From an uncultured Propioniciclava sp. (GTDB lineage Bacteria; Actinomycetota; Actinomycetes; Propionibacteriales; Propionibacteriaceae), in the NCBI GenBank assembly GCA_937872005.1, contig CALMPQ010000105.1:1-11511 (forward strand): a DNA stretch of 11,511 nucleotides. The letters run 5' to 3'. A model generated the notes under the pieces. That model worked only from the letters and a program-made list of their open reading frames with translations, was not told the DNA's origin and searched no databases. Every line of letters begins with the position of its first letter. Within the stretch, counting starts at the first letter, position 1. The position numbers were made by a program, and so were the translations under genes. Positions 1,714 to 11,511 of this stretch are shown one piece after another.

Positions 1714-4266
1714 TCAGCGTCGACCCACCACCGCGGCCAGCGGCACGGTGCGCGTGCGGGCCACCGACATCGCGGACGCCCCCGCCGCCACCAGGCCCCA
1801 ACCCACGAGCACGAACACCGGGATCGTCACGCCCGTGCCGGTGACGACCGCACGGATGGCGTCCAGCGCCGGCGAGACGGGCGAGAGCGACCGCAACGCC
1901 GAGAACACCCCGGGCGCCGTCGCCGTGGTCGCCGTCACCGCGGTCACCAACGCCATCACCAGCGCGGCGATCCGCCCGCCGTTGCCGAACCACGCGGCCA
2001 GGGCGTGGTTGACGGCCGCGAAGGGGATCCCGGCCGCGAGCAGCACCAGGCCCAGCAGGACGCCCTCGCCCACCGTCAGCTTCAACGCCACCGCGCCGAG
2101 CACCGACAGCAGCACTGCTTGGGCCGCGACGATCCCGACCCCGGGCAGCAGCGAGCGCCCCAGCAGCGAGCCGGTGCCCGCCGTCGACAGCGCCGCCCGA
2201 CGCGAGACCCCCGGCAACGCGGCGAACGTCGCCAGCGCGCCCACCCACAGGGTGGTGGCGAGCAGCAGGCTCACCCACGCGAGGTTGGGCCGGACGAGCC
2301 CCGACAGGCCCTCGGTCGAGACCGGCGAGGCCACGACCCCGGCGAGGTTGTCGCGCTCGGCGTCGGAGTAGGTCGGGATCTGGCCCGCACCCTCGGCGAC
2401 CCCGTCGGCCAGCTCCTTCGTTCCCTCCGCGAGCTGGCCCGCGCCGCCGGCGAGCTGGTCGAGCCCGCCCGCCAACCGGGACGCCCCGTCCGCGGTCTGC
2501 TCGACGCCCCCGGTGTACTGGGAGACTCCCGAGCTGAGCTGCCCGAGGCCGTCGGCGAGCTGCCGGGCACCCCCGGCGACCTGGTCGACCCCGCCCGTGT
2601 ACTGGTCCACGCCGGCGGAGAGTTGGTCGAGGCCCGTCGCGAACGCCCCGATGCCCTCGGCGAACTGGTCGGTGCCGACCGCCAGACCCGTCGCGCCGTC
2701 GGCGAGCTGGCGCGCTCCGCCGGCGAGCTTGTCGGCGCCCGCGGCCAGCTCCTGGCCGCCCTCGCCGAGCTGGGTCCCGCCGTCGATGAACTGGTTGAGC
2801 AGGGCCATCAGCTGGGCCTTGGTGGTCGGGGTGCCCTCGGGCATCGAGCCCAGCAGCTTCTCGAGCTCGGCCTGCACCCGGGGCGCCCAGGCGACCATCG
2901 CGGTCGAGGCCTTCGACACCTCGTCGAGCAGGCGCAGGATCGCCTCGCCGGTGTCCTGCAGCGCCGCGGCGTCGGTCGCCACGCCGCGTGCGTCGTCGGC
3001 GACCGGGGCCAGCGCCGCAGCCACCTGCTTGCCCGCGGCGATGGCGCCGGCACGGTAGGCCGCGCACGCGTCCTCGGCCAGGTCCTCGGGGCACGTCACC
3101 GTCCCGGACGCCAGCCCTTCGGCCTTCTTCGCCGCCGCCGTCACCCCGTCGCGGACCGCGAGCGTGTCGGGGACCAGGCCCATGGCCTCCTTGACCCAGG
3201 CCCGCGCCCGGTCGACGAACGCCTGGACCTGCTTGTCGAACGCGATCGCGCGGTCGGTCAGCTCGGTCACCGAGTCGATGACGTCGGCCAGCCAGCCGCC
3301 CCATTCCGGGAGCTGGTCGAGCCCGTCGCGGATCGGCGTCACCAGGGAGTTCACGCCCTCGGTGTACTGGGAGATCCCGTCGGCGTACTGCTGCGCCCCC
3401 GCGGCGAAGGTGCCCACGCCGTCGGCGTAGGTGCCCGCGCCCGCGGCCCACTGCCGCGTGCCGTCGGCGAGCTGCTTGGCCCCCGTCACGAGCTGGTCGG
3501 CCCCACCGGCGGCCGCCCGCGCCCCGGAGCGCAGCTGGGGCGAGCCACCCGCGATCTGGCCGAGGCCATCGGCGAGTGCGTCCGCGCCCGAGGCGGACTG
3601 CGCCGCGCCCGATCGCAGCTGCGGGGAGCCGGCCGCGAGCAGGTCGAGGCCGTTCGCCAGCTGCCAGCTGCCATCGGCGGACTGGCGCGCCCCGTCGGCG
3701 AGTTGGCCCGCGCCGTCGGCGAGCTTGGCGGTGCCGTCGACCATCTCCAGCATCTGGGCGGCCATCTGGTTGAAGCCGACGTAGATGTTCTTCAGGTATT
3801 CCCCGGTCAGGAACCGGTTGAGCGCGTTGGCGGCGGCGTCGGCGATCGTCTGGCCGAGCGCGGTCTCATCGAGCCCGGCGACCGGCGACGTCTCCACGTG
3901 GATGGTCGCCTGACGCGCCTTGGAGGCGTCCCCACCGAACGAGGTCGCGGCGGCCGAGAACTCCTGGGGGATCGTCACCACCGCCGCATAGCGCCCGGAC
4001 GCCAGCCCCTCGGCCGCCTTGTCGGCGGTCGCGAGCACCCAGTCCAGGTTCTGCTCGCGGTCGGAGTCGACGAGCTCGGCCGTCAGCTGGCGCCCGAGCG
4101 GCATCATCTGGCCGTTGACCGTGACCATCTCGTCGTTGTTGACGATGGCGGCCTGCACACCGCGCAGGCCGGTGTCGGCCTGCGCCGTGCCCCAGAGGAA
4201 GCCGCCCGCGACGAGCAGCGGCACGAGGAGCAGGGCGACCAGGGTGGTCCAGCGGGAGCGGTTCAT
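1714..4266 (-). CDS. YhgE/Pip-family membrane protein with two heptad-repeat arrays
   Basis: An 850-residue protein of the YhgE/Pip (phage infection protein) type, which combines an N-terminal membrane anchor, a large exported region and a C-terminal ABC-2-like multi-helix membrane domain. Visible parts in order: a membrane helix at about 8-26; the family-typical AIVNND segment at 40-45; array 1 of about 19 heptads (174-305); a non-repeat region with a Cys pair (C392, C401); array 2 of about 18 heptads (498-623); and C-terminal hydrophobic segments near 662-684, 705-729, 735-757, 764-782 and 814-834. The ATG at 4266 has a strong GGAGGT site and overlaps the stop of the upstream MMPL gene as ATGA, so translation is coupled and the two products probably work together. 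Relatives include Lactococcus Pip (phage receptor) and proteins tied to type VII secretion or envelope export; the substrate here is unknown. Repeat copy number may vary between strains. Confidence 0.88.
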   Translation of the reverse strand: MNRSRWTTLVALLLVPLLVAGGFLWGTAQADTGLRGVQAAIVNNDEMVTVNGQMMPLGRQLTAELVDSDREQNLDWVLATADKAAEGLASGRYAAVVTIPQEFSAAATSFGGDASKARQATIHVETSPVAGLDETALGQTIADAAANALNRFLTGEYLKNIYVGFNQMAAQMLEMVDGTAKLADGAGQLADGARQSADGSWQLANGLDLLAAGSPQLRSGAAQSASGADALADGLGQIAGGSPQLRSGARAAAGGADQLVTGAKQLADGTRQWAAGAGTYADGVGTFAAGAQQYADGISQYTEGVNSLVTPIRDGLDQLPEWGGWLADVIDSVTELTDRAIAFDKQVQAFVDRARAWVKEAMGLVPDTLAVRDGVTAAAKKAEGLASGTVTCPEDLAEDACAAYRAGAIAAGKQVAAALAPVADDARGVATDAAALQDTGEAILRLLDEVSKASTAMVAWAPRVQAELEKLLGSMPEGTPTTKAQLMALLNQFIDGGTQLGEGGQELAAGADKLAGGARQLADGATGLAVGTDQFAEGIGAFATGLDQLSAGVDQYTGGVDQVAGGARQLADGLGQLSSGVSQYTGGVEQTADGASRLAGGLDQLAGGAGQLAEGTKELADGVAEGAGQIPTYSDAERDNLAGVVASPVSTEGLSGLVRPNLAWVSLLLATTLWVGALATFAALPGVSRRAALSTAGTGSLLGRSLLPGVGIVAAQAVLLSVLGAVALKLTVGEGVLLGLVLLAAGIPFAAVNHALAAWFGNGGRIAALVMALVTAVTATTATAPGVFSALRSLSPVSPALDAIRAVVTGTGVTIPVFVLVGWGLVAAGASAMSVARTRTVPLAAVVGRR
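2398..2775 (-). repeat. Coding heptad-repeat array 2 (about 18 x 7 residues)
   Basis: Residues 498-623 of the YhgE-like protein form a second run of 7-residue units, such as RQLADGA, DQLSAGV, DQYTGGV, RQLADGL, SQYTGGV, GQLAEGT and KELADGV. The register and consensus match array 1. A near-repeat of DQYTGGV and SQYTGGV, 28 residues apart, again hints at duplication of four-unit blocks. The array ends just before the C-terminal membrane domain. Confidence 0.9.
3352..3747 (-). repeat. Coding heptad-repeat array 1 (about 19 x 7 residues)
   Basis: Residues 174-305 of the YhgE-like protein form consecutive 7-residue units with an almost invariant Gly at position 6 and often Gln at position 2. Examples are AKLADGA, GQLADGA, RQWAAGA, QQYADGI and SQYTEGV. 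At the DNA level this is a 21-bp periodicity with degenerate copies. Two units read PQLRSGA identically, 28 residues apart (215-221 and 243-249), which suggests internal duplication of a four-unit block. Confidence 0.9.
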
Positions 4267-6920
4267 CGGGTACCTCCAACGAGGGCGGGGGTGCGGTCGG
4301 GGTCGAGCGCGGCGAGGGCCTCGCCGTCGGACCCGGCGAGCACGAGGGTGATGTCGGGGTCGGACGCCAGCCGCGCGACCACCTCGCGGGCCGGGGCGCT
4401 GAGCCGGTCGGCATCGTCGATGGCGACCAGCTTCACGGGGGCTGGGCCTGTCGAAGCCCGCTCCAGCTGACGCACGGCGTCGGGGTCGGTGCCGTCGAGC
4501 CACAGTGCGATCCGGCGCAGCTCGCCGGACTGCTGCGGCTGCACCAGGCCGAGCACCTTGAGCTCGCCGGAGGTGAGCGCGAGGCGTCCGGTCAGGGCGA
4601 GGGTGAGTGCGCGCCGAGACGCCGTGGGCCCGTCGAGCACCAGCGTGCGGCCGGGCGCGACCGACAGGTCGACGCCGCCGAACAGTGTCGTGGACGCGGT
4701 GGCCGCGCCGAGCCCCTCGCCGTAGATGGCGTGGTCGGCGCCGGGATGCGGCCACTCGGCCAGGGCGAGCTGGTGGGTGATGGCCTCACCTTCGGCGTCC
4801 ATGGAGGGCAGGCGGCGGTCGAGCCAGGTCGGCAGCCACCACGCCTTGCCGCGGAGCAGCTTCATGATGGCGGGACCCAGCGTCATGCGGACCAGGAACG
4901 CGTCGATCGCCACGCCCACGGCCAAGCCGAACGCGATCGGCTTGATGACGCCCGAGCCCGCGGGAACGAAGAACGCGAAGACCGACACCATGATGAGCGC
5001 CGCCGCGACGACCACCTTGGCGGAGTGCACGAAGCCCTCCTCGGTCGGGTTGGTGCGGTTGCCGTGCACGAACTCCTCGCGCATGCGGGAGGTGAGGAAC
5101 ACCTCGTAGTCCATGGCCAGGCCGAACAGGATGCCCATCAGGATGATCGGCAGGAACGAGATCACCGGCAGCGCCTCGGGCAGGTTGATGACCTCCTTGA
5201 ACCAGCCGAGGTTGAACACCAGCGCGGTCAGGCCGAACGCCGCGCCGACACTGAGCAGGTAGCCGAGCGCCGCCTTGACCGGCACCACCAGCGACCGGAA
5301 CACGATCGTCAGCAGCACCAGCGACAGGCCCACCACGAAGAGGCCGAACGGGAGCAGGGCGCCCGCGAGCTGGGCGGACACATCCAGCGCGACCGCGGTG
5401 TAGCCCGTGATCGACATCTCGATGCCGCGGGTCTGCGCCCACTGATCGGTCAGGTCGTTGAGCCGGTGGACGAGCTGGCTCGTCTCGGGGTCGTCGGGAC
5501 CGGTGGTCGGGATGACCTGGATGAGTCCGGTGTCGGCGTTCTGATTCGGCACCGCCATGGCGACGAGCTTCACGCCGGGCACCTGCTCGACCTCGTCGGC
5601 CAGCTCGGTGACCAGGCCCATCGGGTCGTTGGACTCGACGATGGTGCCGGTGATGACCAGCGGGCCGTTGTAGCCGGGGCCGAACCGGTCGCTGATGAGG
5701 TCGAACGTGACACGGTCGGGGGCGCCGGGCGGGTTCTGCCCCGAGTTGGGCAGCGCGAGCTGCAGGTGCTGGGTGGGCAACGCGACCACACCGAGACCGA
5801 CCACGACCAGGGCGATCGTCAGCACGGGCACCTTCGTGACCACCCGCACCCACCAGCGGCTCGGGTTGAAGCGGGGCTTCGCGTCGGGCTTGGCGGGCTT
5901 GGGGCGGAGCCGCTCGCCGGCGAAGCCCAGCATCGCGGGCAGCAGGGTCAGGGCGAGGGCGACCTCGATGGCCACGGCGACGGCCGAGAAGACGCCCATG
6001 ATCGCGAGGAACGGCATGCCGGCGATGCTGAGGCCGACCAGGGCCACGATGACCGTGGCACCGGCCACGACCACGGCCGACCCGGCGGTCGCGGTGGCCC
6101 GAGCGGCGGACTCCTCGGCGTCCATGCCCGTCGCGAGCTGGTCGCGGTGGCGGGAGACGATGAAGAGCGAGTAGTCGATGCCGACCGCGAGGGCGAGCAT
6201 CAGGGCGAGCAGCAGCGTGGTCGACATGATCGGCACGATCCCGGCGGCGATCACGATGAGCAGGATCGCCGCGCCCGCGCCGATCAGCGCGTTGACGACG
6301 GGCATGATGGCGGCCCACACCGAGCCGAGCACGACGATCAGGACGATGATCGCGATGCCGACGCCGATGGCCTCGATCGCCGAGACGTGCGGCATCTGGA
6401 ACGAGAAGAGGTCGCCGCCGACGTGCACCTCACCACCGGGGATGGCCGCCTGCAGCCGCTCCCCCGCGTCGACCAGCAGCTCGCGCTGGGCGTCGGTGAA
6501 GGTGCTCATCGAGTAGCCGTCGACGCGCACGTTGATGAGGGCGGCCGTGCCGTCGTCGCTGACCAGTCCGTCCACATACTCGTTGAACGGCGACTGGGCC
6601 ATCGCGACCCACTCGATCTTCTCGAGCTCCACGATCTCGTCCTCGATCGCGGTGCGCACCAGGTCGTCGCGCACGCTCGCCCCCGGCGGGGCCAGCACCA
6701 CGATGGACGCCGAACTCATCGCCGCCTCGGGGAAGGTCATCTTCAACTGGTCGAGCGCGACCTGCGAGCGGGCGCCCGGGATGTCGAACTCGTCGTCGAA
6801 GCTGCCCCCGATGGCTGCGGCGAGCCCGCCCAGCACGACGAGGATGACCAGCCAGGTCGCGACGACACGGCGGCGGGCACGCCAAGATGCGCGGGCCAGT
6901 CGATAGATCCACGTGGACAC
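4263..6920 (-). CDS. MMPL/RND-family transporter with C-terminal degenerate ABC-ATPase-like domain
   Basis: An 885-residue MMPL-type RND transporter, expected to use the proton gradient to export lipids or hydrophobic compounds. A membrane helix near 20-40 is followed by a first extracytoplasmic domain (about 41-180), a helix bundle (181-335), a basic loop, a second extracytoplasmic domain (about 382-515) and a second bundle (516-690). The two proton-relay motifs are intact: GIDYSLFIVSR (D249-Y250) and AMDYEVFLTSR (D604-Y605), corresponding to the paired Asp-Tyr of MmpL3. Residues from about 724 to the end form an ABC-ATPase-like domain lacking key residues (separate entry). The GTG start at 6920 has GAGAGG nine bases upstream; no ATG lies nearby, and the longer frame upstream would run through the operator region. 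The stop overlaps the YhgE-like start as ATGA. A divergent TetR gene and a tandem operator suggest inducible control. Confidence 0.92.
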   Translation of the reverse strand: MSTWIYRLARASWRARRRVVATWLVILVVLGGLAAAIGGSFDDEFDIPGARSQVALDQLKMTFPEAAMSSASIVVLAPPGASVRDDLVRTAIEDEIVELEKIEWVAMAQSPFNEYVDGLVSDDGTAALINVRVDGYSMSTFTDAQRELLVDAGERLQAAIPGGEVHVGGDLFSFQMPHVSAIEAIGVGIAIIVLIVVLGSVWAAIMPVVNALIGAGAAILLIVIAAGIVPIMSTTLLLALMLALAVGIDYSLFIVSRHRDQLATGMDAEESAARATATAGSAVVVAGATVIVALVGLSIAGMPFLAIMGVFSAVAVAIEVALALTLLPAMLGFAGERLRPKPAKPDAKPRFNPSRWWVRVVTKVPVLTIALVVVGLGVVALPTQHLQLALPNSGQNPPGAPDRVTFDLISDRFGPGYNGPLVITGTIVESNDPMGLVTELADEVEQVPGVKLVAMAVPNQNADTGLIQVIPTTGPDDPETSQLVHRLNDLTDQWAQTRGIEMSITGYTAVALDVSAQLAGALLPFGLFVVGLSLVLLTIVFRSLVVPVKAALGYLLSVGAAFGLTALVFNLGWFKEVINLPEALPVISFLPIILMGILFGLAMDYEVFLTSRMREEFVHGNRTNPTEEGFVHSAKVVVAAALIMVSVFAFFVPAGSGVIKPIAFGLAVGVAIDAFLVRMTLGPAIMKLLRGKAWWLPTWLDRRLPSMDAEGEAITHQLALAEWPHPGADHAIYGEGLGAATASTTLFGGVDLSVAPGRTLVLDGPTASRRALTLALTGRLALTSGELKVLGLVQPQQSGELRRIALWLDGTDPDAVRQLERASTGPAPVKLVAIDDADRLSAPAREVVARLASDPDITLVLAGSDGEALAALDPDRTPALVGGTR
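4266..4751 (-). other. Degenerate ABC-ATPase-like domain fused to MMPL
   Basis: Residues ~724-885 of the MMPL protein continue in frame after the membrane domain. The order resembles an ABC nucleotide-binding domain: a strand with LFGGVDLSVAPGRTLVLDG, a P-loop position reading GPTASRRAL (764-772), then LTSGELKVLGL, a Walker B-like KLVAIDDADRLS (830-841), and a final strand DITLVLAGS. The Walker A Gly-Lys-Ser/Thr is replaced by Ser-Arg-Arg, no LSGGQ signature exists, and only about 70 residues separate the P-loop from Walker B, against well over 100 in a normal ABC ATPase. The helical subdomain is therefore largely missing. It is probably a pseudo-ATPase with a structural or docking role. The family assignment rests on pattern and order only. 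Confidence 0.68.
4439..4459. repeat. Embedded short palindromic repeat-like sequence in the fusion domain
   Basis: The minus strand reads GGGCTTCGACAGG followed by CCCAGCCC, with 5-base arms GGGCT/AGCCC at the ends. It closely resembles, with one difference as I recall it, a short dispersed sequence common in actinobacterial genomes (GGGCTTCGACAGGCTCAGCC-type). It encodes RASTGPAP (residues 821-828), just before the Walker B-like strand. Its identity as a dispersed repeat is recollection; only one copy is visible in this window. Confidence 0.5.
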
Positions 6921-6935
6921 GGTGGGACACCTCTC

Positions 6936-6968
6936 GATACAAATCTGTATCCGATACGGTACTGTATC
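6936..6968. promoter_or_regulatory. Tandem GATAC-N6-GTATC operators, likely TetR binding sites
   Basis: Two 16-bp imperfect palindromes lie side by side: GATACAAATCTGTATC (6936-6951) and GATACGGTACTGTATC (6953-6968). They share GATAC-N6-GTATC and their centres are 17 bp apart. The flanks extend the outer symmetry to TCGATAC...GTATCGA. Site 1 directly abuts the MMPL ribosome binding site, so binding would block MMPL-YhgE expression. Such sites are typical of TetR-family operators, and a TetR gene is divergent next door. The pairing of protein and site is inference. Confidence 0.72.
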
Positions 6969-7000
6969 GAAGGCGGGGATCCCAACCCGCCCAGCTAGGG

Positions 7001-7028
7001 GCAAAACTCTGGTAAGCCGGAGTTGTGC
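7001..7028. promoter_or_regulatory. 28-bp inverted repeat IR1
   Basis: The arms GCAAAACTCTGG and CCGGAGTTGTGC flank the 4-base spacer TAAG. The pairing continues outward by three more G-C pairs (6998-7000 with 7029-7031), giving a 34-bp hairpin with 13 of 15 Watson-Crick pairs. It shares its arm sequence with IR2 and lies in the tetR leader or promoter. It could be an operator distinct from the GATAC pair, an RNA hairpin, or a dispersed repeat. Confidence 0.6.
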
Positions 7029-7052
7029 CCCGTTCCGGAGCCGACCAACCCG

Positions 7053-7101: not shown

Positions 7102-7734
7102 GTGACCGAGCTCACCGCACGACGGGCAGCGACGCGCGAGAAGTTGGTGGACGCCGCGATCACCGTGTTCGCCGAGAAGGGCGTGCTCGGGGCGTCGGTG
7201 GAGGAGATCTGCGAGGCCGCCGGGTTCACGCGCGGGGCCTTCTACTCGAACTTCTCCACCAAGGACGACCTGTGCGTCGCCGTCCTGCACCGCCAGGTGG
7301 ACGCGCAGATGGCGGCCCTCGACAAGGCCCTGGCCACGGTCGACATCGCGGGCCACGCCGACCTCGACCACGTGCTGCCCGCGGCATTGGAGGTCTTCTT
7401 CGCCTCGCGGCCGACCGACCGGGACTGGGTGCTCACCGGCCAGGAGCTGCGCCTGCACGCCGCCCGCTCCCCCGAACTCGCCGAGGCCTACCGCGACTGC
7501 AACCGGCGCGGGACGGAGGCGGTGGCGTCCGCGATCGGCCAGGCGCTGGCCGCCCTGGGGTACGAGCTGGCCACGACCGGGCCCGAGGCCGTGGGAGCCC
7601 TCCATGCGGTCCACGACCACACGATGGTCGGGCAGTTGATCGGCACGGGCGCCGATGAGGTGAGTGCTCCTCTCCTGGCGAGCCTGCTGCGCGCACTCAT
7701 CCGAAGGTCGGGGTCGTCTCAGCCCCAGGTGTGA
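7102..7734 (+). CDS. TetR/AcrR-family transcriptional regulator
   Basis: A 210-residue TetR-type repressor. The N-terminal DNA-binding domain shows TREKLVDAAITVFAEKG (11-27) and the helix-turn-helix region ASVEEICEAAGFTRGAFYSNFSTKDDL (about 31-57), with the family-typical G-A-F-Y-S-N-F-S-T-K recognition segment. The C-terminal ligand/dimer domain (60-210) is all-helical by sequence, and its ligand is unknown. The GTG start at 7102 is chosen because AGGAG lies five bases upstream and the fold begins right after it; longer in-frame extensions would run through the operator repeats. It is divergent from the MMPL-YhgE operon across a 181-bp region with two pairs of inverted repeats, and about 60 bp upstream of the adaptor-ABC cassette on its own strand. 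It probably represses the MMPL operon and itself, and possibly the cassette. C-terminal residues RRSGSSQPQV look disordered. Confidence 0.94.
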   Translation: MTELTARRAATREKLVDAAITVFAEKGVLGASVEEICEAAGFTRGAFYSNFSTKDDLCVAVLHRQVDAQMAALDKALATVDIAGHADLDHVLPAALEVFFASRPTDRDWVLTGQELRLHAARSPELAEAYRDCNRRGTEAVASAIGQALAALGYELATTGPEAVGALHAVHDHTMVGQLIGTGADEVSAPLLASLLRALIRRSGSSQPQV

Positions 7735-7795
7735 CGCCCGGGGGTCGCCGATGCGAGAGGATGCGCTTGACCATCCCCAACCGATCGGATGCCCC

Positions 7796-8997
7796 GTGTC
7801 AGACACCCTGGCCCCGCCGGACTTCGCGGCCCCGCCACCGCCACCGCCCCCCGCTCCGAAGCCGAAGGGCCGCCGCACCGTCCTCGTCATGGTCCTCGCT
7901 GTCGTGCTCGTCGTGCTGCTGGCGCTGGCCTGGATGGTGACCTCCTTCCTCAACAGCCTGACCACGATGGGCCAGATGGGGCCGCAGGAGTCTGAGGTCC
8001 CCGTGATGCGGGTCGACCTCGCCCCGCGGGTGACCCTGGCCGGCACGATCGCCCCCACCCAGCGCCTGGACCTGTCGTTCACGAGCGACGGCGAGGTCAC
8101 GGCCGTCCCGGTCGCCGTCGGTGACGCGGTGGCCAAGGGCGCGCCGCTGGCGTCCATCGACGACACCGAGTTGCTCGCCACGGTGTCGGACGCCACCGCC
8201 GAGGCCAACGCCGCCCGACAGGACTACAACAGCGCCCGACGGACCGGGCCCGCCGCCGCGGTCACGGCGGCCCGCTCCGCACTCACCATGAAGGAGCAGG
8301 CGCTCAAGGACGCGCGCGCGGCCCTCGACAAGGCCACCCTCACCTCGACCATCGACGGCGTCGTCGCCGCGGTGAACGTCAAGGTCGGCGACCGGGTCGG
8401 CTCCGGCGCGGCGCCCTCCGGTGACGGCGCCCCCGGCGGCGGCAGCACGGCCGCCGTGGTGGTGATCTCGAAGACCTTCCAGGTCGACGCCACCGTCGGC
8501 AGCGCCGACCGCCCCCGGGTCGCCAAGGGCATGAAGGCCACCGTGGTCACGCCGTCCTCACCCACGCCCCTCCCGGGCACCGTCACGGCCGTGGGCGTCA
8601 TCGCCACGTCGGCCGGCGGGGACCGGCCCACCGCCGCCACCTTCCCCGTCACGATCACCCTCGACGGCCAGCCCACCACCGTGTTCACCGGCGGCTCGGC
8701 CACGGTCGACCTGGTCGGCGAGGGCCGCACCGGCGTCCTGGCCATTCCCCGAGCCGCCCTGCTCGACGGCGCCGAGGGCCCGACCGGCACCGTCCTCGCC
8801 CGGCGGGGCGGTGCCGAGCCCCAGCCCGTCGAGGTCACCCTCGGCGCGGCGCAGGACGACATGGTCGAGGTCGTCTCCGGTCTCGACGAGGGCGACCTGG
8901 TCGTGGTGATGGGGGGCATGGCCGGGCCCGGCATGGCCGGCCCGGGCGGCTTCGGCGGCGGCAACGCCGGCCCCGTCGTGGTGGAGGAGAAGCCGCG

Positions 8998-9001
<4 letters not shown>
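7796..9001 (+). CDS. Membrane-fusion/HlyD-like adaptor of an ABC exporter (adaptor 1)
   Basis: A 401-residue periplasmic-adaptor-like protein of the MacA/YknX type, expected to be membrane-anchored outside the cell and to pair with the downstream ABC ATPase and permease. A Pro-rich cytoplasmic start (13-24, including a run of seven prolines) precedes a membrane helix at ~28-50. Half-lipoyl segments (LSFTSDGEVTAVPVAVGDAV, 93-112; TIDGVVAAVNVKVGDRV, 185-201) flank a short helical hairpin (~127-180), followed by a beta-barrel region with IPRAALL (317-323) and a Gly/Met-rich tail (373-391). The start is ambiguous: GTG 7796 gives the compact N-terminus VSDTLAPP but has a weak ribosome binding site, while in-frame ATG 7751, preceded by GGGGGT, would add 15 residues. 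The stop overlaps the next start as ATGA, so translation is coupled. It may be read through from tetR, whose stop is only 61 bp before. Confidence 0.88.
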
Positions 9002-9719
<718 letters not shown>

Positions 9720-9720
<1 letters not shown>

Positions 9721-10955
9721 TGACTTGGTGGGAGACCTTCCGCATCGCGCTGGACGCCATCATCTCGCACCGCGTCCGGTCGATCCTGACGACGCTGGGC
9801 ATCACGATCGGCATCGCCGCGGTGACCCTGTCGGTCGGGCTCGCCCAAGGGGCGTCCTCGCAGGTGACGAGCCAGATCGACAGCCTCGGCTCGAACCTGC
9901 TGACGGTCATGGGTGGGTACGCCCAGCCGGTCGACGGGGCGAGCGGTGCGACCGCCACCGACCCCAAGCCGATCAGCATGGCCGACGCGGACGCCCTGGC
10001 CGACCGCGACGTGGCCCCCGACATCGCCGGGGTCGCGCCACTCATCAACACGGGGTTCGAGCTGTCGGCCGGCGACAAGGTCGTGGGTACCAGCGCCGAG
10101 GCCACCACGCCGGCGTGGCTGGGCGTCCGGTCCCGCACGCTGGCGGCGGGCCGCTTCTTCACCGACGAGGAGCAGGCTGACTCCGCTCCCGTCATCGTGC
10201 TCGGCGACGGGGTCGCGTCCCAGCTCTTCGGGGACCCCCACGCGTCCATCGGCCGCATGGTGTCGGCCAGCGGGAACACCCTCCAGGTCGTCGGCGTGCT
10301 GGCCTCGGCCGGCGGCGGGGGCGGCATGATGAACGCCGACGACGTCGCCGTCCTGCCCCTGTCGACCTACCTGGAGCGCCTGTCCTGGGGCGACGAGTCC
10401 CTGTCGGGCATCTACGTGCAGGCGGCCTCGACCGAGAAGCTGACCCAGGCCTACCAGGAGACCGAGGCGCTGCTGCTGGCCCGCCGGGGGGCGTCCACCG
10501 CCGAGGAAGCCGGGATCATGATCATGTCCCAGCAGTCGCTGGTCGAGGCCATGCAGGGCGTGACGAACGCCCTCACCCTGCTGCTGGGCGGCATCGCGGC
10601 GATCTCGCTGGTCGTCGGTGGCATCGGTGTCATGAACATCATGCTGGTGTCGGTCTCCGAGCGGGTGCGCGAGATCGGTCTGCGCAAGGCGCTCGGGGCC
10701 CGCCGCCGCACCATCCTGCTCCAGTTCCTCACCGAGGCCGCGCTGCTGGCGCTCGTCGGGGGCGTCTTCGGGCTGCTGCTCAGCGGTGGCGTCGCGGCCC
10801 TGATCACGGCGCTCACCCAGTTCCCCATCCCGGTGTCGGTCCCGACGGTGCTGATGGCGCTCGGCGTCTCGGCCACCATCGGCATCATCGCCGGCGTCTA
10901 CCCCGCCTCCCGGGCCGCGCGCATGGCCCCCATCGACGCGCTGCGCCGCGAGTGA
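9720..10955 (+). CDS. MacB-like FtsX-fold ABC transporter permease
   Basis: A 411-residue permease of the MacB/YknZ type with the expected four membrane helices. The first is at ~23-43, followed by an extracytoplasmic MacB core (~48-275). Three C-terminal helices follow at ~283-312, ~333-362 and ~373-397. The coupling segment VSERVREIGLRKALGARRRTI (312-332) and the terminal P-A-S-R-A-A-R-M-A-P-I-D-A-L-R motif are classic for the family. Such systems work by mechanotransmission, extracting substrates from the outer membrane leaflet or periplasm-like space rather than through a channel. The ATG at 9720 shares one base with the ATPase stop; GTG 9717 (GTGA overlap) would add one residue. The substrate may be an antimicrobial peptide, lipid or lipoprotein, and cannot be decided from sequence. 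Confidence 0.95.
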
Positions 10956-10967
10956 AGGATCCTGACG

Positions 10968-11511
10968 ATGACCACACCCCCCGTCCCCCCACCCCCCGGC
11001 GGCCTGCCTCCGGCGCGGGTCACCACGCCGGCGTCCGGCACCCGGCGCGCCAAGGCCCGCACCCGACAGCAGAAGGTGCTCGCCGTGGCACTCGCCCTGC
11101 TGCTGGTCGCCGGCATCGGGTGGGCGCTCATGCAGTCCGGGAGCCGCGGCCCGACGGGTGCGGCCCGCTACACCACCGTGGCCGTCACCCGCGGTTCCGT
11201 CGACCAGCGGATCGTCACCTCCGGCACCGTCGCCAAGGTGAACGAGATGGCGATGCGTTTCCCGGCGTCCGGGACCGTCACCGAACTGCGCGCCACCGTC
11301 GGTGACACCGTGGCCGCCGGCGACGTCATCGCGGTCATGGACGACACCTCCCTGCGCACCAAGGTGCTCGGCGCGCAGGCGGCCGTGGACGCCGCCGTGC
11401 TCTCCCTGCAGCAGGTCAAGGAGGCCGACCGCCAGTCGCGCGCCCAGCCGTCGCAACCCCGGCAGCCGTCCCAGCCCCGCCAGCCCGCCAACCCCGGCCC
11501 GCCCGGGGGTG
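10968..11511 (+). CDS. Second HlyD-like adaptor protein (adaptor 2), 3' truncated by window edge
   Basis: An open frame starts at ATG 10968, with GAAGGA about eight bases upstream and only 12 bp after the permease stop. It remains open to the window end (181 codons), so the gene is partial. The product starts with a Pro-rich cytoplasmic segment (MTTPPVPPPPGG) and a basic stretch, then a membrane helix at ~36-54. A half-lipoyl motif (YTTVAVTRGSVDQRIVTSG; FPASGTVTELRATVGDTV, 98-115) leads to DTSLRTKVLGAQAAVDAAVLSL, the start of a helical hairpin. From ~159 it turns into Pro/Gln-rich repeats (QPSQPRQPSQPRQP). It resembles adaptor 1 in layout, so the cassette has two adaptors around one ATPase-permease pair. 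The second lipoyl half and barrel should lie beyond the edge. Confidence 0.85.
   Translation, partial: MTTPPVPPPPGGLPPARVTTPASGTRRAKARTRQQKVLAVALALLLVAGIGWALMQSGSRGPTGAARYTTVAVTRGSVDQRIVTSGTVAKVNEMAMRFPASGTVTELRATVGDTVAAGDVIAVMDDTSLRTKVLGAQAAVDAAVLSLQQVKEADRQSRAQPSQPRQPSQPRQPANPGPPGG

Follow-up and report, generated by a model that had tools for sequence, protein, structure and literature searches.

Transporters of the MmpL3/MMPL family (PF03176, TIGR00833) carry two MMPL repeats and Asp-Tyr pairs. ABC transporters are defined by their nucleotide-binding domain (NBD; PF00005), for example in MlaF, FtsE and MacB, and in heterodimeric ABC exporters a degenerate NBD works beside an active partner. 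In one open-access library, covered by titles and the beginnings of abstracts, none of the papers listed named an MMPL-NBD fusion or an MMPL-YhgE pair. According to Table 2 of a study on Saccharopolyspora hirsuta, cholesterol induces a YhgE/Pip gene (F1721_04135) 3.82-fold and an MMPL gene (F1721_04140) 3.33-fold (PMC9782250), and the consulted part of PMC12584985 merely names a YhgE/Pip gene.

The locus analysed here lies in 11,511 nucleotides of DNA from an uncultured Propioniciclava sp.; this whole stretch is referred to as the window. It encodes an MMPL transporter of the RND superfamily (885 aa, GTG start, 4263..6920, minus strand) that matches PF03176 in two stretches with 272.7 bits (cut-off 20.5). 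The two MMPL repeats and the Asp-Tyr pairs (GIDYSLF and AMDYEVF), which we take to act in proton relay, are shared with MmpL3. In contrast to this family the window protein has an NBD tail, and it reaches 174.9 bits with TIGR00833 (cut-off 874.7). The next gene encodes a YhgE/Pip-like protein (850 aa, 1714..4266, minus strand) consisting of a first transmembrane helix (TM1), a long ectodomain and a C-terminal ABC-2/ABCG-type TM domain. The latter is similar to that of ABCG/ABCA-type exporters, but the ectodomain with its heptad repeats is very long and the chain has no NBD of its own.

The same plan of MMPL, linker, NBD and YhgE is found in the Aeromicrobium-type loci (L049-L054), whose fused NBD differs from the window domain in having an intact Walker A and the full helical region. 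These proteins are annotated as MMPL family transporter, transporter or RND superfamily exporter, and once as ABC transporter ATP-binding protein. The closest sequence relatives of the window domain that we found are NBD-like genes linked to YhgE (L130-L149). They have an LxGR...G...LP region in common with it, but they are separate genes without an MMPL and have a longer span from Walker A to Walker B.

The MMPL frame and its C-terminal domain

The frame of the MMPL gene runs from a GTG at 6920 (VSTWIY..., picked via homology to P0002) to the TGA at 4263-4265 on the minus strand. As the original prediction had stated, it enters the C-terminal domain without interruption; there are no internal stops, and about 190 residues follow the last MMPL helix. 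A frameshift or read-through artefact as the source of the domain is ruled out by in-frame homologues in several family codes, and a chance ORF by conservation and dN/dS. Frame irregularities around the domain or the MMPL were seen in single loci (L012, L037, L111, L107 and P0104). Among plasmids, 228 records contain MMPL relatives, none of which covers 80% of the query.

Between the last TM helix and the NBD lies a conserved linker (WWLPTWLDRRLPSMDAEGEAITHQLALAEWP; 4749..4841, minus strand). It is the most conserved part: six of the eight columns that are invariant across 60 sequences fall here, as do 16 of the 43 invariant columns in an alignment of 12 sequences.

The domain itself (4266..4739, minus strand) is an ABC nucleotide-binding fold without the helical subdomain. 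At the Walker A position the sequence, as listed in our motif table, reads GPTASRRAL (4605..4631, minus strand) and does not fit GxxGxGK[ST]; the Walker A Lys of NBDs such as those of MlaF, FtsE and MacB is missing. The Walker B position reads LVAIDDADRL (4401..4430, minus strand), in which the Walker B Asp is kept and the catalytic Glu is replaced by Asp (IDDAD). A position-by-position motif comparison found neither an LSGGQ signature nor a helical subdomain, and the tail below 4731 contains no His that could form an H-loop. All 15 ordinary ABC NBDs from the same loci have a Walker A K-S/T, and 14 of them have DE at Walker B. The degenerate Walker A and the absence of LSGGQ had both been described correctly beforehand. 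The stretch between Walker A and Walker B is indeed short, but it amounts to about 58-60 residues and not to the roughly 70 that were claimed; in the 15 ordinary NBDs it comprises 109-120. Lacking the catalytic motifs, the window domain is presumably nucleotide-blind.

The signal of the single window sequence is weak (best NCBIfam E 0.039, best PDB E 0.11; no match to Pfam ABC_tran, PF00005, at E 0.1, and its curated cut-off is not reached); the relation to ABC proteins becomes clear only with profile and fold. A profile of the domain (A1) matched the ABC NBDs MlaF, HmuV, MacB and CcmA over the P-loop region with E 8e-4 to 6e-3. Structure prediction of the C-terminus and a fold search, which had been proposed as a check, yielded the ABC NBD fold; the underlying alignment (A3) included full-length NBD relatives and may push AF2 toward this fold. 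Judged from the profile matches and the predicted structure, the window domain is derived from an ABC NBD. The anatomy proposed by the earlier reader was correct, as was the origin assigned to the domain, and the question it posed was the right one.

A graded series of fused domains

With the domain as the query, all 20 proteins found were MMPL proteins (PF03176, precomputed). In the family code of the window (f1), 105 of 125 genomes matched the domain profile with E 2.4e-28 or better, 14 matched more weakly and six did not match; weak matches outside f1 in the order-level table of 293 genomes may be ordinary ABC proteins. Genome G000, whose assembly is 72% complete, has only one match. Named carriers include Propioniciclava, Nigerium, Microlunatus, Micropruina, Klugiella and Xylanimicrobium. 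In a class-level search of 394 genomes, with the C-terminal half of the MMPL plus the linker as the query, 35 loci (L094-L128) were picked from the top of the list; 26 carry the domain, in L111 with a break in the frame, and nine lack it. The architecture is thus retained in many relatives from several actinobacterial families, as the search suggested by the original prediction was meant to find out. Two MMPL-domain-YhgE loci per genome were seen in G012 (L067/L068), G402 (L101/L108), G430 (L095/L109) and G481 (L107/L113).

We compared 87 fused domains (a set that leaves out L001, L002, L022, L028, L029-L048, L037, L050, L070, L111 and tails of less than 120 residues). Seven are full-length with an intact Walker A and an A-to-B span of 123-127 residues. 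Overall, the Walker A K followed by S/T is present in 14 and absent in 73, and LSGGQ occurs in none. In L049-L054 and L102/L105 the NBD is full-length, Walker A is intact and the signature is degenerate (for example LSRLERK or VTPLERK); the tail of L054 is the same as that of P0087, named Aeromicrobium marinum. In L016, L065, L066, L068, L086 and L087, and in L088 with an otherwise poor P-loop, K-S/T is kept and the helical part is gone. In L057-L063, L067, L112-L115 and L119, Walker A is gone and a longer remnant is left. The window and most other fused domains have neither Walker A nor the helical part. Pfam ABC_tran is matched above its cut-off by L049 (60.5 bits), L053 (49.4), L068 (29.9) and L065 (27.5), and below it by L086. 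The 83 listed relatives of the L049 fused NBD (P0022-P0104), of which 20 are named Aeromicrobium, all have PF03176, and 71 of them show the Walker A pattern.

A quick tree was built from the MMPL core alone, with the domain left out (96 rows). On it the K state requires at least four changes, three of them forced by starred branches, and the nine domainless rows all fall to the same side of one branch (support 99). As the root of this tree was not inferred, the direction of decay rests on taking the working P-loop as the older state.

Among 20 close pairs of our own selection, dN/dS in the domain ranged from 0.18 to 0.80 (median 0.37) and was below one in every pair. It exceeded the value of the MMPL core (median 0.21) in 19 of the 20. 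By this sequence measure, the pseudo-NBD remnant is under weak purifying selection.

NBD-like genes beside YhgE

A search with TIGR03061 at E 0.001 detected YhgE genes in 153 of 394 genomes, and from these we chose 20 loci away from MMPL for their spread. In 17 of them an NBD-like ORF lies directly upstream of YhgE on the same strand; none was seen at L135, L139 and L146. The weak members of the 17 are L136, L148, L144 and L147, which do not reach the Pfam ABC_tran cut-off or do not match this model at all, and L137, which has no NCBIfam match. The question whether related loci keep a separate ATPase gene therefore has a divided answer: such a gene is absent between MMPL and YhgE in the loci read and present in most of the operons without MMPL that were read. 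The solo genes are themselves often degenerate, with a Walker A K-S/T in two of 17, DD at Walker B in six of 17 and an A-to-B span of 108-185 residues.

With the short-domain profile A1 the 17 solo genes scored 12.6-48.4 bits and the 15 ordinary ABC NBDs 2.7-19.8 bits. The scores overlap, four solo genes being below the best ordinary NBD, and they are partly selected because the solo set was chosen through the domain or an ABC profile. Profile-profile comparison gave E 1.7e-15 for the solo genes versus 9.8e-9 for the ordinary ABC NBDs. In a FastTree of 119 domains, a branch with support 0.83 separates the 17 solo and 87 fused domains from the 15 ordinary ABC rows; the window belongs to a clade that comprises 62 fused domains but no full-length one (support 0.98), and the other deep branches are weak. 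The best NCBIfam models for the solo and full-length fused NBDs are of FtsE, DrrA, CcmA, NodI or F420-0 type, none near its cut-off.

One solo gene, L132, has 120 listed relatives of Streptomyces type (P0126-P0245), which go under the name 'ATP-binding cassette domain-containing protein'. By pattern count, the Walker A Lys is replaced by Arg in 119 and by His in one, LSGG occurs in none and DD[AV][DE] in 31. The L132-type Streptomyces protein is probably a widespread dead ABC ATPase annotated as ATP-binding.

YhgE and its linkage to the fused domain

The window YhgE matches the N-terminal model TIGR03061 above its cut-off (112.5 versus 96.15 bits) and the C-terminal model TIGR03062 below it (51.2 versus 102.2). 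PF12698 is matched below its cut-off (27.9 versus 31.6 bits), and above it by all six related YhgE proteins scanned. The TM domain has the ABC-2/ABCG-type fold and resembles ABCG1, ABCG2, ABCG16, ABCG5/8 and ABCA4; the ABC-2-type membrane domain that had been proposed for this protein is supported by these matches together with PF12698 in the relatives. The whole YhgE model gave no Foldseek match at E 0.001, and coiled coils are among the matches listed for the YhgE profile against PDB chains. TIGR03057 marks 12 X-X-X-Leu-X-X-Gly heptad stretches in the ectodomain; the region around them is predicted to form very long helices, which in the model could reach far across the envelope.

The MMPL stop and the yhgE start overlap as ATGA at 4263-4266, and the last MMPL codons, which encode a C-terminal Gly-Gly, contain GGAGGT (4272..4277, minus strand), which reads as a Shine-Dalgarno sequence for YhgE. 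The two features agree with the predicted translational coupling. In 78 of 106 domain-bearing loci the final codons contain a Shine-Dalgarno-like stretch, and in 78 the two genes overlap as ATGA or GTGA. The Shine-Dalgarno-like stretch is present in 23 of 24 tails with Gly-Gly, so this C-terminus is in part a signal at the nucleotide level.

The domain was paired with YhgE in every locus with room for it, as the original prediction implied: of 113 domain-bearing MMPL ORFs, three lie too close to the end of the fetched stretch for a downstream gene, and in all other 110 YhgE homology starts within 117 bases past the MMPL stop or, at three loci, inside the MMPL ORF itself. Conversely, YhgE followed none of the 10 domainless MMPLs (L028 and nine from L094-L128; score limit 60 bits; L107, a piece of a split MMPL gene, is excluded), so that an MMPL without the domain yet with YhgE was not seen among these loci. 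These figures describe the loci read and are no census, because the loci were partly chosen via the domain and some were fetched more than once (for example L002/L030/window, L004/L031, L006/L032, L012/L037 and L016/L070). The single ORFs comprising MMPL, NBD and YhgE (L012/L037, L111, P0104) were considered as proof of contact and rejected; they look like frame changes and not like clean fusions. We give them no weight because the intervening stretch is Arg-rich, like an out-of-frame join. L012 and L037, one of which is Nigerium massiliense, are identical where compared; both, and L111, are counted as YhgE-positive above.

A motif preceding TM1 of YhgE, E[LFIM]xR[FLMV], is present in all seven loci with a full-length NBD and in 14 of 17 with a separate NBD gene, and absent from all 78 remnant (0/13) and short-domain (0/65) loci. 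The pattern was defined after viewing the sequences, and by kinship these counts represent only a few events; its presence in two of three YhgE proteins without an NBD gene counts against a link to the NBD. In the loci with short or remnant domains, an ordinary NBD-TMD interface may thus have been lost from both partners at once, and the missing motif argues against ordinary NBD-TMD docking there. In 60 loci, the partial distance correlation between domain and YhgE given MMPL was 0.298 and that of the domain-TetR control 0.278, i. e. there was no excess.

Neighbouring genes

A divergent gene for a TetR-family regulator (7102..7734, plus strand; GTG start chosen by eye; PF00440 50.4 bits) precedes the MMPL gene, and a single-sequence search found an opposite-strand TetR gene anywhere in the stretch in 66 of 88 domain-bearing loci of at least 7 kb. 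Between tetR and MMPL lie inverted repeats (6934-6970 and 6998-7031, spanning 6934..7031), TCGATACAAATCTGTATC/GATACGGTACTGTATCGA and GGGGCAAAACTCTGG/CCGGAGTTGTGCCCC, which are candidate TetR operators. Genes for an SDR and a PlsC-like acyltransferase (54-1680) converge on yhgE; at E 1e-15 relatives occur in other fetched loci (10 for SDR, one of them weak, and 12 for PlsC; position partly checked). On the other side of tetR are MacAB-like export genes (7754-11510): an ABC ATPase at 8998-9720 (PF00005 115.8 bits) and, named by eye, an adaptor, a permease and a further adaptor that is cut off by the end of the window.

Origin and role of the fused domain

The origin of the domain is now largely explained. 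YhgE, an ABCG-like protein with an ABC-2-type membrane domain and a long ectodomain, often appears directly behind a small dedicated NBD-like gene, which may once have powered it. In one operon type, this NBD would have become the C-terminal tail of a proton-driven MMPL transporter, putting two engines on one machine, and the proton engine may have made the ATP engine dispensable. Aeromicrobium, with its fused NBD still full-length and Walker A intact, could represent an early state; in the lineage of the window the helical/signature subdomain and the P-loop would have been lost, leaving a compact remnant. Our preferred interpretation, in line with the tether that the original prediction had inferred, is that this decayed NBD of YhgE now serves as a scaffold that holds MMPL and YhgE, made by coupled translation, in one export complex. 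Its energy would come from the proton gradient through MMPL, and its substrate is probably lipid-like. We rate the chances of this interpretation as about even. It is not placed higher because the pre-TM1 motif is missing in the short and remnant loci and specific co-evolution was not found, which leaves a smaller but appreciable share to the idea that the domain is merely folded.

According to that idea, which we regard as rather unlikely, a leftover NBD fusion is being lost, and its frame is kept partly for the yhgE ribosome-binding site in its end. The elevated dN/dS relative to the core and the repeated changes of the Walker A state fit this idea, as do the missing motif and the lack of domain-YhgE-specific co-evolution, and the Gly-Gly tails are accounted for by the Shine-Dalgarno-like GGAGG. 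However, dN/dS is below one in all pairs, invariant columns abound, 16 of them in the linker, and YhgE was never seen with a domainless MMPL. It is less probable still that the domain acts on MMPL alone, in gating, as an oligomer contact or by binding a cytoplasmic partner, with YhgE being a co-regulated separate transporter. The linker is the most conserved part, and MmpL5-AcpM complexes, judging by titles, are an example of an MMPL with a cytoplasmic partner; yet domain and YhgE were never apart in the MMPL loci read, and the domain is closest to NBDs encoded beside YhgE. Very improbable, despite the established precedent in ABC exporters, is a degenerate half which, paired with a catalytic NBD encoded in another part of the genome, keeps YhgE ATP-driven: the short form lacks the signature and helical subdomain needed for the NBD sandwich, the loci read have no NBD gene between MMPL and YhgE, and the 72% complete assembly G000 has a single match to the domain profile.

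The scaffold interpretation can be extended to a change of fuel, which we put forward tentatively: an ABCG-like exporter would have been welded to MMPL via its own NBD, the ATP chemistry would have decayed after the proton motive force had taken over the drive, perhaps several times independently, and the remnant would be the joint. If true, this would be a hybrid RND/ABC machine, and Aeromicrobium would possibly be a dual-energy form. The fusion brings together two transporter superfamilies that otherwise count as distinct classes by energy source. The names of the listed homologues, for the most part MMPL family transporter or RND superfamily exporter, conceal the fused domain, and the actinobacterial YhgE proteins studied here are likely ABCG-like exporters with an own, often degenerate, NBD. 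Because living relatives grade from a full NBD to a remnant, the question whether a proton pump can take over an ABC exporter becomes testable.
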